A DNA stretch of 32,164 bases, taken from positions 1 through 32,164 of the forward strand of contig CALZHT010000029.1 in the NCBI GenBank assembly GCA_945787445.1, read 5' to 3'. This stretch comes from an uncultured Desulfobulbaceae bacterium (GTDB lineage: Bacteria; Desulfobacterota; Desulfobulbia; Desulfobulbales; CALZHT01). This document shows, piece by piece, positions 3,612 through 25,668 of the stretch; positions within the stretch are counted from its first letter, which is position 1, and the number at the start of each line of letters is the position of its first letter. The notes beneath the pieces are model-generated. The model did no database searches. It was not told the origin of the DNA and saw nothing but the letters and a program-made list of their open reading frames with translations. The position numbers and the translations under genes were made by a program.

Positions 3612-3815
3612 ATGGAATGCAATAAGGAAAGAAATTTAGACTCCTGCAACTGCAGCTATGATCCATGCCCCAGGAAAGGCATATGTTGCGAGTGTCTCAA
3701 ATATCATCTCAACATGCGGCAACTTCCGGGCTGTTGCTTTCCCGATGACGCTGAGCGTACTTATGACAGATCCTTCGAGCATTTCGCCAGACTGGTTTCA
3801 GCTAAGAACGTCTAG
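3612..3815 (+). CDS. Small Cys-rich DUF6485-family protein
   Basis: This 67-residue protein has eight cysteines, mostly in CNCSYDPCPRKGICCECLKY and then GCCFPDDAERTYDRS. The pattern is that of the DUF6485 family as I remember it, common in anaerobic bacteria; its function is unknown, though the spacing suggests a metal-binding module. The start has AAGGAGAGG ten bases before the ATG. The stop codon TAG at 3813-3815 lies inside the CTAG that opens the palindromic repeat element at 3812-3896, so the element probably sets or replaced the original end of the gene. It is the last gene of the secF-tatC run and is convergent with the cytochrome gene. Confidence 0.8.
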   Translation: MECNKERNLDSCNCSYDPCPRKGICCECLKYHLNMRQLPGCCFPDDAERTYDRSFEHFARLVSAKNV

Positions 3816-3896
3816 CCCGCGTTTTTCATAAAGGTCGCAACGCGATGCTGGAGGTGTTGCGGAAAGAAGGCGCGGGAAGGAAAAACACCCGGCTAG
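3812..3896. repeat. Short copy of palindromic element family A (MITE-like)
   Basis: This 85-bp block is bounded by CTAG at both ends. It matches the left part of the 182-bp element at 14048-14229: both read CTAGCCCGC, then TTT-TCA-AAAGG, GATGCTGGA, TGTTG, and GGCGCGGGAAGG followed by AAACACCCG. It can fold through CCCGCG (3816-3821) and CGCGGG (3871-3876). It fills the gap between two convergent genes and supplies the TAG stop codon of each through its two CTAG ends. It may also act as a bidirectional terminator; that is inference. Confidence 0.8.
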
Positions 3897-5203
3897 AATA
3901 AATGTTCCCCGCCATTGTATGACTCATAAAGAGTGGTTGTGCCGTTATAGATCTGGGTGCTGCCGTGGTAATGGCAGACGGTGCAGTCCCTGTACTCAGT
4001 ATTAAAGACACCGGGCGGGTCAACCCATACCTGCCAGTGGCATTGCCAGGTGCAATCGCCGGGATTAATCAAATGATGCTTATCCGGGATTCCGAAATGG
4101 CAGGTGTCGCATAATGATTTCCAGTTGCCGCGGCCACCGGGGATGGTGACATTCAGTCTATTGACGGCCCTGCGGGTGAGCATGCTGTTGGGCGAGCCGT
4201 GCGGTTCATGGCAGTCGGTGCAGGAGAGGACGTACTGCCCGGCACTGGTTTCCTGATAGGGCGCTTTAAAATCCGTGCCGGTATCATTGCTGGCTGCTCC
4301 TTGCCCATGTTTTTCCAAAGACCAGTCAAAGTTTCGCACATTTCTGGCCAGTGCCGTTGATACGATGGTATCTGTCGCATTATGGCAATCGGTGCAAAAG
4401 GTTACAAAATCGGTGAGGTTGGAACCGTCAGAGGTGGTGGTGGAGCCGTCCGGCTCATAATTAGTAGTTGTAGGACCGAAACGGTAAGGTGCTTGATAGG
4501 TTTGCGATGCAGCGTAGTTATTCATTCTTTCACCATTACCAGCCCCTGGCCCGGTGTAATCATCACCCCACAATCCCCAGGTATCGAGGGCGGCATGGGC
4601 GCTCGGTCTTGAAACCGGATAGCCGCGGGTTATGTTACTTTTTGCCGCGCTCATAGCATTTGCCGGGTCTCCCTGGACTGCATGGGGGTTATGGCAGGCA
4701 GCGCATGGATTAGAGTTGGCCGTATACCCCCACTTGCCGGTAATGAAGGTGGAGATGTCATCCAAACTATGGGAGGAGGTGAGGCTGAAAGCCTCTTGTA
4801 TATCGTTCACCGTATCGGCCGACCAATCGCCGGCCCGGTAGCTGTAGCTGCGATTGATCAGCCCGCCAGTCTGCACGGAATTCGTGTCGGTATGGCACTT
4901 GAAACAGAAATTGTCGGTCTGGTTCACATGGTTGGGAGAAAAGAGCGTATATGCTGAGGGAGTGCCGGACGCCGGGGCTGGTTCTCCTCCTTCAATACTC
5001 ATATGAGGCTCATGGCAGTGTGAACAGTTGCCTCTTGAATAGGTCGCAAGCTTCGAATCGGTTCTGGCAACCCCAAAACTGCTGTTGCCATGGGCGGAAT
5101 CAAGATACTCTCCGGCGTTGGCTGCCGGGCAGAAAACCAATAACAAGATCAAAATACAAATTGTGTTAACCATAATCTTTTCAATAGCTTGCCATGAATT
5201 CAC
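3893..5203 (-). CDS. Secreted multihaem cytochrome c, seven CxxCH plus one Cx3CH
   Basis: This 436-residue protein has an N-terminal hydrophobic export signal (ICILILLLVFCPAANA, cleavage after residue 30 likely). Seven canonical haem c motifs occur: CSHCH (60), CFKCH (100), CAACH (167), CTDCH (270), CTDCH (328), CDTCH (365) and CTVCH (407). An eighth, CTWQCH at 384, has an extra residue between the cysteines. Several are followed by EPHGS, EPHMS or NPHA, typical of doubled-CxxCH cytochromes in anaerobic metal- or sulfur-cycling bacteria. It probably works in periplasmic or extracellular electron transfer; the partner is unknown and no other redox gene is adjacent. The start is ambiguous: GTG at 5203 gives a charged n-region, while ATG at 5173 gives a shorter signal. 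Its stop codon lies in the element at 3812-3896. Confidence 0.9.
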   Translation of the reverse strand: MNSWQAIEKIMVNTICILILLLVFCPAANAGEYLDSAHGNSSFGVARTDSKLATYSRGNCSHCHEPHMSIEGGEPAPASGTPSAYTLFSPNHVNQTDNFCFKCHTDTNSVQTGGLINRSYSYRAGDWSADTVNDIQEAFSLTSSHSLDDISTFITGKWGYTANSNPCAACHNPHAVQGDPANAMSAAKSNITRGYPVSRPSAHAALDTWGLWGDDYTGPGAGNGERMNNYAASQTYQAPYRFGPTTTNYEPDGSTTTSDGSNLTDFVTFCTDCHNATDTIVSTALARNVRNFDWSLEKHGQGAASNDTGTDFKAPYQETSAGQYVLSCTDCHEPHGSPNSMLTRRAVNRLNVTIPGGRGNWKSLCDTCHFGIPDKHHLINPGDCTWQCHWQVWVDPPGVFNTEYRDCTVCHYHGSTQIYNGTTTLYESYNGGEHLF

Positions 5204-14047: not shown

Positions 14048-14229
14048 CTAGCCCGCATTTCTCACAAAGGCCGTAGCGAGATGCTGGAAAGTGTTGTGGA
14101 TACAAGGCGCGGGAAGGAAAACACCCGCAGGCGTACTTTCAGTACGTTGAGGATGTTTTTCAAGCGCAACGCAGTAGACGCAATACTTTCCAGCATCGCA
14201 GTAGATCGCTTGTGAGAAATGCGGGCTAG
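14048..14229. repeat. Full-length palindromic element family A (MITE-like, 182 bp)
   Basis: Both ends read CTAGCCCGCATTTCTCACAA, a perfect 20-bp terminal inverted repeat, and the arms stay similar further in (GATGCTGGAAAGT on both strands). The centre holds a small hairpin CGTACTTTCAGTACG. The related 85-bp copy at 3812-3896 covers the left part. It has no coding capacity. CTAG at each end could be a target-site duplication of a YTAR-targeting IS5-type transposase, or the element's own terminus. A 167-codon minus-strand frame through it is an artefact of the repeat. Confidence 0.85.
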
Positions 14230-20756: not shown

Positions 20757-20997
20757 ATGAAACTCCTCTCAAATAGGTGTTTGGGCGTCCGGCTGCAAGA
20801 AATTTCATTACTCACAAATATTTATTTTATCACATGTGGTGGCATGGATTTAAGAATAATTCTCAAGGAAAGATATTTTATGGAATTTTTTACGCCAAAA
20901 CAATGTATGAGAACAGGGCGGGGAAGAGATATGGTGGCTAACAAAAACTGAAAAAGATGGGAAAAATAAAAATTTACTGAGCAAGTGCTCCTGGGGA

Positions 20998-21197
20998 AAG
21001 TCGCAGACTTGGAGGATGCTGGAACAAGTTGTTTCCAATTCGGAAATTGACAATTTTGCGAAAGGTCAAGGAGATCAAGGAATTGCCCTAAAGGAATTCC
21101 TTTGGTCAGGTGGAGACCTACTCGAGTACGCCGCACAAGCAATTCCGCAGATCGACGCAGAGATTCCGAAAAAGGGGCGTTTCCGGATGGAAACTAG
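20998..21197. repeat. Palindromic element family B, long copy
   Basis: This 200-bp block shares most of its sequence with 25229-25405: AAGTCGCAGACTTGGAGGAT at the left, GAAAGGTCAAGGAGATCAAG in the middle, a GTAC-type palindrome (CTCGAG-TACG), and TTTCCGGATGGAAACTAG at the right. This copy has about 25 extra bases (21086-21110) that contain the palindrome AAAGGAATTCCTTT. Its right-end CTAG (21194-21197) supplies the TAG stop of the adjacent histidine kinase. The remainder of the gap 20757-20997 is AT-rich with no convincing gene. Confidence 0.82.
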
Positions 21198-23020
21198 CTA
21201 TGATCGGTTTGCTCATGCGCCATCGGAAAGGTTATAACGAATCGCGTAAAACCATCTCGGACATCAATATCCATATTGCCGTGATTGGCTAAGACAAACT
21301 TGGAAATAATATTCAACCCCCTTCCCTTTACTTCGGCCTGCCGGATATTTTCCAGTTGATCCGATGGGATCTCGCCGGTGTTTTCAACTGTAAATTTAAC
21401 ATTGTCTCCTTGTTTATGGCCGTAAATGGCAACGACGCCACCTTCTTCAGGCACGGCACGGGCTGCGTTGCCCAGGAGGTTATCCAAAATCCTTTCAAGA
21501 CCAAACCTGGGGCAAAACACATAGAGACCTTCTTCAATATCCGGCGCAACCAAGGTGACATGTTTCAACTTTGATGCAAATGCAACCTCCCCCAGTATAC
21601 GGTAACGCTGCCGGGCTATGGCGCTGAGGTTGAGAACTTCTTCGCGGCCGGCCCCCCCCATAGTTTGGGTCAGATCCTGCATGCGGGCGGCTTCTGATGA
21701 CATGATTTCAAGATAGGAGGCAAGTTTCGGCCGAATCTCTTCAAAATTTTCTTGTTCCAGAAGATTTAGGGCCCGATTGGCAAACCCTGCCAGAGCAATG
21801 GCCGGGTTTTTTATATCGTGGAGGACATCGTCAAGAAATTCCAGTTTGGAAGCTTTCATGATTTCCTTGCCGAAAAAAGTTAACAATTCCACCTCTTCTT
21901 CGGTAAAGGCTTTGCGCTGTCTGGATGCATAAAAGATCAGCAAGTGCCGGACCTGGTCGACGACTTTCAAGGGTACGAGAAGAATGGAATGGATATGATG
22001 CTCTGATACAAGTTCATGGAGCCGGTCGCTGATCAATGGACTTTTGATAGGGTCCTTGATGAGGACATAAGAGGAAGTGATTCGCTCATAATCCCTGTCT
22101 CCGAGCGGTTGTTCGCCGGCAATGGCGGTCTGGAAATACGGGTGGTGCGCTACCGTAAAGCTATAATTGGCCTTATGATAAGTAATATCAGGCGGATAAG
22201 AGGCCTCCAGATGAATGTGTTGCTGGTCATCTGATACGGTAAACAGGGAGCAGCCCTGTACTTCAAGCATTTCATCAAGTTCAGGAATAAGCAGGATAAA
22301 GAGATCTTTGAGCTTGATTCCTTCGCGGCGGCTGAGCTTGAAGAAAATGTTATCAACAATGGTCTCCTTGCGGCGGTTGAGTTTCTGCAGATCCAGGATC
22401 TTTTTTTTCGCCAGCACAAAGCTAATGCGCCGGGCCATAAGTTCCGCCAGAATAATTTCTAAATTATCAAACTTTTTGTCCTCTTCGCGGTAATAGATCT
22501 GCATGGTTCCAAGCAGGTTCTGGCCGGTGGATACTAAGGGCACAGGAGTAAAGAGCGGCACAGCCAGGAGAGAGTTAAAACCACGTACTTTGACGATGTT
22601 TTTATCTTTAAAAAGAGGGTGTTTGAGGATATTAGGCACTGCCATGGCCTGTTTTTGCTTAACTACCTGACCGGCAATGGATTCATTGAGGGGAATAGCG
22701 GCATGACGACTGTAATCAGGTACACCATAGGCGCCGAAACTCGACATGTGCATGGACACTGAATCAATAATTCTTATGGTGGCGGCATCGGCCTCCAGGT
22801 ATTGCACAATCCGCTTGGCAGCAATTTCAAGGATTTTTCGCGTCGGATTATCCGGGTCAATGGCCATGATATCTTCAGTTTCATTGATAACCGAGGAAAG
22901 AAACCAGGCCTGGTATTCGCTTTCAAGGGCTTTGGTCAGTTCCTTTTGTTGGGCGTTGGAAAGCATTTTTTCATGGAACAGATGGTATCGGCTAAAGAAC
23001 TCTTCCAGCTTTTTTTCCAT
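21194..23020 (-). CDS. GAF-GAF sensor histidine kinase
   Basis: This 608-residue kinase has no transmembrane segment and is probably cytoplasmic. Residues about 60-205 form a GAF domain (AADAATIRIID-type text, AIPLNESIAGQVV, GFNSLLAVPLFTP), and about 235-385 a second one (GCSLFTVSDD, HIHSILLVPLKVV). The dimerisation/phosphoacceptor helix contains LDDVLHDIKNPAIAL with H401. The ATPase domain shows the N box LLGNAARAVPEEGG and a G box around VKGRGLNIISK. It phosphorylates itself in response to a small ligand or redox signal; no response regulator gene is adjacent. CAGGAG lies nine bases before the ATG. Its stop codon lies in the CTAG of the repeat at 20998-21197. Confidence 0.9.
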   Translation of the reverse strand: MEKKLEEFFSRYHLFHEKMLSNAQQKELTKALESEYQAWFLSSVINETEDIMAIDPDNPTRKILEIAAKRIVQYLEADAATIRIIDSVSMHMSSFGAYGVPDYSRHAAIPLNESIAGQVVKQKQAMAVPNILKHPLFKDKNIVKVRGFNSLLAVPLFTPVPLVSTGQNLLGTMQIYYREEDKKFDNLEIILAELMARRISFVLAKKKILDLQKLNRRKETIVDNIFFKLSRREGIKLKDLFILLIPELDEMLEVQGCSLFTVSDDQQHIHLEASYPPDITYHKANYSFTVAHHPYFQTAIAGEQPLGDRDYERITSSYVLIKDPIKSPLISDRLHELVSEHHIHSILLVPLKVVDQVRHLLIFYASRQRKAFTEEEVELLTFFGKEIMKASKLEFLDDVLHDIKNPAIALAGFANRALNLLEQENFEEIRPKLASYLEIMSSEAARMQDLTQTMGGAGREEVLNLSAIARQRYRILGEVAFASKLKHVTLVAPDIEEGLYVFCPRFGLERILDNLLGNAARAVPEEGGVVAIYGHKQGDNVKFTVENTGEIPSDQLENIRQAEVKGRGLNIISKFVLANHGNMDIDVRDGFTRFVITFPMAHEQTDHS

Positions 23021-25228: not shown

Positions 25229-25405
25229 AAGTCGCAGACTTGGAGGATGCTGGAACAAGTTGTTTCCAATTCGGAAACCGACAATTTTGCGAAAGGTCAA
25301 GGAGATCAAGGAATTGTGCGGAGACGTACTTGAGTACGTCGCACAAGCAAATTCGTAGATCGACACAGAGATTTCACAAAAGAGGCGTTTCCGGAAGGAA
25401 ACTAG
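25229..25405. repeat. Palindromic element family B, short copy
   Basis: This 177-bp block is the second copy of the element at 20998-21197, lacking the 25-base internal segment. It ends in GGAAACTAG at 25405. Just outside its left edge, TTCCCATCCGGTAAG (25218-25231) resembles the complement of the right end (TTCCATCCGGAAAC in the other copy), so the element may begin near 25211 with imperfect terminal inverted repeats. The centre reads GTACTTGAGTACGTC. It lies just upstream of the start of the orphan gene and may affect its transcription. Confidence 0.82.
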
Positions 25406-25600: not shown

Positions 25601-25668
25601 GTCATTTCGAACGAATGTGAGAAATCTTTTCCGGGGCAATACGATTTCTCACATTCGTTCGAAATGAC
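25601..25668. repeat. Perfect 26-bp inverted repeat (stem-loop)
   Basis: The left arm 25601-25626 (starting GTCATTTCGAACGAATGTGA) is the exact reverse complement of the right arm 25643-25668, with a 16-base loop. It is in the 635-bp gap before the ABC exporter. Similar GTCATTTCGA...GAGAAATC palindromes occur in many bacterial genomes as dispersed repeats, as I recall. No T-run follows. The remainder of 25406-25821 has no convincing gene. Confidence 0.85.

Follow-up and report, generated by a model that had tools for sequence, protein, structure and literature searches.

A probable IS1380-type MITE in a CTAG stop shared by two convergent genes of an uncultured Desulfobulbaceae bacterium

Two convergent genes end on the CTAG tetramers that bound an 85-bp repeat at positions 3812-3896 of the window, the whole stretch of 32,164 nt that was analyzed. 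We consider it highly probable that this repeat is an IS1380-type MITE that inserted into a single CTAG serving as stop codon for both genes, duplicated this target, left both C-termini unchanged and was later deleted internally. An IS1380-type MITE is an ordinary type of object, and what is instructive here is a target that acts as a stop codon in both directions.

The CTAG boundaries, at 3812-3815 and 3893-3896, and the coincidence of both gene ends with them are as described in the initial annotation. The 67-aa DUF6485 gene on the plus strand (3612-3815) ends with TAG at 3813-3815, within the left CTAG, and the 436-aa multihaem c-type cytochrome gene on the minus strand (3893-5203, with a GTG start as predicted from the ORF) ends with TAG at 3895-3893, within the right one; the tetramers themselves were assigned to neither strand. 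Pfam matches identify both ORFs as real genes. The first matches PF20095 at 46 bits (cutoff 24), and the second carries MtrC/MtrF-like and paired-CXXCH cytochrome domains. CTAG is scarce in the window, with 18 occurrences against approximately 65 expected from shuffles, and edges of repeat copies make up 6 of these 18, so the CTAG flanks at 3812-3896 are not due to chance.

Between the two tetramers, the body of the shortened MITE (3816-3892, plus strand) carries the left terminal inverted repeat (TIR) CCCGCGTTTTTCAT, which has three mismatches relative to CCCGCATTTCTCAC, the TIR of the repeat family to which we assign it (family A). A 20-mer singled out in the initial annotation occurs at 3812-3831 with three mismatches and exactly at 14048-14067 and 14210-14229, with 0 occurrences expected; the latter two positions are the ends of a full-length 182-bp family A copy (14048-14229, plus strand) that has CTAG on both sides and lies away from gene stops. 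The 85-bp element, described as palindromic, is a genuine repeat, but this copy is no full palindrome, as most of its right terminal repeat is missing: a single gap of 97 bp separates it from the 182-bp copy in the alignment, with the right CTAG kept and most of the right TIR gone. Because the local right TIR is gone, family membership of this copy is drawn from its left 80 bp, which are 84% identical to intact copies. We interpret it from this alignment as a 182-bp IS1380-type MITE with a 97-bp internal deletion and, since that deletion would have removed most of the right TIR, as a presumably immobile remnant.

The source genome assembly (4.46 Mb, 227 contigs, 96% complete) contains approximately 17 two-ended family A copies, mostly of 176-233 bp (overall span 85-233 bp). 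In this genome and in many phyla the ends have the same structure, YTAR followed by CCCGCATTTCTCAC on the left and GTGAGAAATGCGGG followed by YTAR on the right. The outer tetramers in the source genome are CTAG/CTAG in many copies, TTAA/TTAA in some and CTAA/CTAA in one (C1:29686). Among the matches listed from many genomes, 170 edge flanks comprised CTAG (85), TTAG (31), TTAA (21), CTAA (20) and other tetramers (13), figures to be read with the fact that the multi-genome edge scan demanded YTAR; source-genome edges were selected without that requirement. Beyond YTAR, the 170 flanks showed no preferred base. Family A copies have the properties of MITEs in being small, multicopy and without a transposase gene, and in carrying short direct YTAR duplications. 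One copy, C61:18569-18750, has an identical C-to-T change beside CTAG at both ends (CTAGTCCGC...GCGGACTAG), which suggests that one end was corrected to the other or that the parent had a variant TIR.

The nature of the tetramer can be read from flanks that are not palindromic. Direct repeats of this kind (TTAG/TTAG or CTAA/CTAA) were found in 6 of 50 two-ended elements among the matches listed, as well as in C1:29686 and in the transposase-bearing element L130 described below, compared to 2 cases of the inverted type. Because non-palindromic tetramers are directly repeated, the tetramer is a target-site duplication lying outside the inverted repeat; on this reasoning the CTAG at our locus is no part of the element but a duplicated 4-bp target that follows the consensus YTAR. 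We ruled out CTAG as a part of the inverted repeat, as the non-palindromic tetramers repeat directly and not inverted, and also ruled out a TA duplication of the IS630/mariner kind at CTAG, as constraint and duplication extend over all four bases and the parent is an IS1380 element.

Evidence on the parent came from other genomes. In Bradyrhizobium sp. sGM-13, a 1,650-bp element with family A TIRs and CTAA/CTAA flanks (L130) encloses one transposase ORF, which matches the IS1380 model NF033539 with 398 bits (cutoff 180) and PF13701 with 496 bits. The terminal repeat CCCGCATTTCTCAC is common to L130 and the intact family A copies, while the copy at 3812 retains only the left TIR. Two further loci (L157 and L231) have an exact CTAG plus TIR adjoining a related transposase, an order-level relative carries a 1,620-bp IS1380 element with CTAG flanks and diverged ends (L237), and a viral contig holds an IS1380 element with CTAA flanks (L341). 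Other IS1380 genes of order-level relatives are surrounded by ends unrelated to the family A TIR, and two candidates for full elements in the multi-genome set (L120 and L201) were rejected, their enclosed ORFs being unlike transposases. The IS5 family likewise uses a YTAR-type target, and the target consensus and 4-bp duplication would fit an IS5 parent equally well; the enclosed transposase of L130 and the further IS1380 transposases that lie beside this TIR or diverged forms of it, with CTAG, make such a parent very improbable.

The source genome itself gave no NF033539 match to an IS1380 transposase (227 contigs, 96% complete), and its mobilizer is missing or lost. A co-resident autonomous parent is usual for a MITE but not obligatory, since the MITE may persist after its parent is lost; with the assembly also fragmented, the absence of a resident parent limits any claim of current mobility and not the claim of origin. 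The identical 14-bp TIR CCCGCATTTCTCAC spans many phyla, occurring in at least 119 contig stretches from Gammaproteobacteria, Alphaproteobacteria, Acidobacteria, Planctomycetes and others, which suggests a widespread IS1380 subgroup that probably moves horizontally. In the library of papers that was searched, none contained this TIR sequence.

The position of the repeat between convergent genes, together with folding somewhat better than that of shuffled sequences (z -2.08), would also fit a host element kept there, either a bidirectional terminator or a REP-like extragenic palindrome. We regard such an origin as highly improbable. No intrinsic terminator (GC-rich stem followed by a T-tract) was found within 3812-3896 on either strand, an Rfam search gave no match, other family A copies occur in regions with co-directional or divergent genes, and YTAR duplications are the mark of transposition. 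REP/BIME sequences are short single palindromes without target duplication that are mobilized by RAYT; the target duplications and 14-bp TIRs of the family A copies rule against them.

With the repeat read as an IS1380-type MITE, we considered whether its insertion had changed the flanking proteins. It had been proposed from the initial annotation that the insertion shaped both C-termini, and the comparison with homologues, which the annotation had itself named as a refuting check, refutes this. In each gene the duplicated target contains the complete stop codon, which means that this codon stood in frame before the insertion. Element-free homologues, a term that here means free of family A only, since the DUF6485 gene of relative G011 stops at a CTAG beside a different palindrome, have their last residue at exactly the same position, followed by TAG, TAA or TGA. 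All three close DUF6485 homologues (76-81% identity) end at residue 67 (+0), their stops being TAG, TGA and TAA. For the cytochrome, the homologues L079, L080, L085 and L087 have a +0 end with TAA or TGA and an identical terminal Phe. A second copy with stops at both ends, C58:11040-11221, lies between a GGDEF gene and a tyrosyl-tRNA synthetase gene that both stop at the CTAGs, and there the GGDEF homologues (n = 5) end at +0 in three cases and at +1 and +6 in the others, with TGA. Since the stops predate the insertion and the homologues end alike, the insertion shaped neither C-terminus. The exact placement of both stops at the element edges could also be explained if the insertion had created both codons and thereby fixed both C-termini; given that the codons lie entirely within the 4-bp duplicated target and that homologues at both loci end as described, we hold this to be extremely improbable.

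In relative G011, the CTAG end of the DUF6485 gene (L072) and that of the cytochrome gene (L082) are followed by small palindromes (CTGCCCGACGAAAAACGGGCTGCTAG, CAGCCCGTTGAAAAACGGGCTG), possibly a third CTAG-associated repeat or a terminator at stop codons.

The history of the locus can be reconstructed by rejoining the flanks over one CTAG, which gives ...AAGAACGTCTAGAATAAATG... with DUF6485 ending in GTC TAG and the cytochrome, on the other strand, in TTC TAG. In the ancestral state the 3′ ends of the convergent genes would have shared four bases (ACGT-CTAG-AATA), with a TAG stop on both strands. An IS1380-family transposase acting in trans would then have inserted an ancestor of approximately 182 bp into that single CTAG, and through duplication of the 4-bp target each gene would have retained its original stop in its own CTAG, with unchanged C-termini. 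The element would afterwards have been shortened from 182 to 85 bp. Our search for an orthologous empty site found none with both genes adjacent in relatives, where the genes are present and not side by side, and synteny was lost in relatives for the GGDEF/TyrRS and cytochrome neighbourhoods; the ancestral 4-nt overlap is therefore reconstructed rather than observed.

We compared the frequency of element edges at gene stops with chance expectation, using 432 kb of the source genome as control and a home-made dicodon ORF caller. Family A edges lie at gene stops in 9 of 34 cases in the source genome, compared to control rates per usable (non-interior) edge of 5.9% for CTAG and 4.0% for any YTAR (p ~1e-4 against the CTAG rate, and p = 0.0095 under a pessimistic true rate of 11%). 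Both edges are at gene stops in 2 of 17 family A copies (p ~4e-4); of the 1,183 usable YTAR sites in the 432 kb of control, only 2 act as the stop of both genes of a convergent pair. Under an ORF control that treated both sets alike, stops were found at 20-25% of element edges versus 5.8-11% of CTAG control edges. For the 134 edges from other genomes among the matches listed, open frames of 200 aa or more ended there 29 times in the TAR frame, versus 7 and 6 times in the other two. The enrichment at stops is real but moderate, approximately 2.5 to 5 fold, and is read as moderate because the ORF caller is crude and misses genes, which inflates the number of usable sites, and because the control includes promoter-side sites that selection clears. 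The earlier suggestion that CTAG at gene ends is the target of the element has in part been borne out, as the target is YTAR, mostly CTAG, and stops are over-represented (9/34 versus 4-6%), but the over-representation may reflect survivorship.

A second repeat family in the window, family B, also meets gene ends. Its copies, found at 47 matching places in the source genome, are approximately 187-210 bp long, have the TIR GTTYCCATCCGGAAA and are flanked by a 6-bp TAnnTA duplication. One copy lies at 20989-21194 (plus strand; left end degraded, so that the start is approximate), with its target TAGCTA at 21195-21200, and another extends from 25218 to approximately 25402-25405 (plus strand), with flanks CAGTTC and TAGTTC that differ by one mismatch and with approximate ends. 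At family B junctions, the terminal TA of the target and the first G of the element form TAG. A histidine-kinase ORF stops in this way at 21196-21194 on the minus strand, its composite TAG being made of the element-end C and the target TA. The initial annotation saw at 21194-21197 the same arrangement as at our locus; a histidine-kinase gene does stop there, at a repeat of a different family, but the CTAG is a junction of element C and target TAG and not a duplicated CTAG. Family B edges coincided with the end of a long open frame (200 aa or more) in the TAG frame in 7 of 54 cases and in the other two frames in none. The codon before insertion, read by eye, was already TAA or TAG in 5 of 6 readable copies. 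Family B does contribute the third base of the stop, though mostly of one that already existed. A perfect 26-bp inverted repeat (GTCATTTCGAACGAATGTGAGAAATC) with a 16-bp loop forms an intergenic hairpin at 25601-25668 of the window and is apparently unrelated to families A and B.

Read inward from either side, YTAR (CTAG, TTAA, CTAA or TTAG) always gives TAA or TAG, so that elements with this target can land exactly on stops harmlessly. Survivorship may be taken as the default cause of the stop enrichment, with active targeting as a live rival. The latter would direct elements to gene ends through terminators, 3′ transcription boundaries or a longer recognition sequence; it bears on why stops are enriched and does not conflict with the identity of the element as an IS1380-type MITE. 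We think it rather unlikely. It would account for a coincidence with stops 2.5 to 5 times above that of usable YTAR/CTAG sites and for its recurrence in two unrelated families, A and B, and transposition by replacement of inverted repeats has been reported for IS1272 of the IS1182 family (PMC5678879), but the 170 edge flanks lack any preference beyond YTAR, the control is affected by selection-cleared promoter-side sites and by missed genes, and within convergent regions the CTAG control rate is already 19% per edge. A literature search on target duplications that overlap stop codons found nothing direct. Tentatively, stops could be a preferred safe landing site, at which two unrelated MITEs (with YTAR and TAnnTA targets) rebuild an in-frame stop at both junctions. 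It is similarly a tentative proposal that landing or survival at stops is several-fold above that at other usable sites, including stops shared tail to tail by convergent genes.

Integration that regenerates the gene it hits is known from attTn7 and from phage att sites in tRNA genes. Family A resembles these systems in that the host gene stays intact and the target is rebuilt or spared at the junction, whereas it differs in that they use one specific locus and family A any YTAR, with stops as one harmless subset. With IS1380-family and bacterial IS-derived MITEs it shares a TIR in common with an IS1380-transposase element, a 4-bp duplication, a non-coding body and many dispersed intergenic copies. 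MITEAba12 and MITEPye1 are likewise short, IS-derived, non-autonomous bacterial elements, but the first has a 9-bp duplication with no sequence preference (PMC6382973) and the second has IS1182-type ends (PMC11578231). For IS1247, of the IS1380 family, a 5-bp duplication is listed (PMC3281130), in contrast to the strict 4-bp YTAR of the family A TIR group, which for this reason looks like a distinct IS1380 subgroup. The eukaryotic piggyBac superfamily has a TTAA-type 4-bp target and a TIR starting with CCC, some animal copies are reported to have TTAG and CTAA duplications (PMC10813416, PMC7351741), and bacterial IS1380 is the outgroup in piggyBac trees; family A differs in its preference for CTAG over TTAA, its bacterial host and a transposase that falls in the IS1380 model. 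The YTAR duplications and CCC-starting ends link the IS1380 subgroup of family A to eukaryotic piggyBac.

A story of mobile DNA reshaping two proteins is tempting here but wrong, and a simpler rule replaces it: YTAR is a stop from both sides, and an element that duplicates it can sit at gene ends with the proteins unchanged. Because this TIR is found across many phyla, the rule is a general one, and it predicts the places at which such elements build up.
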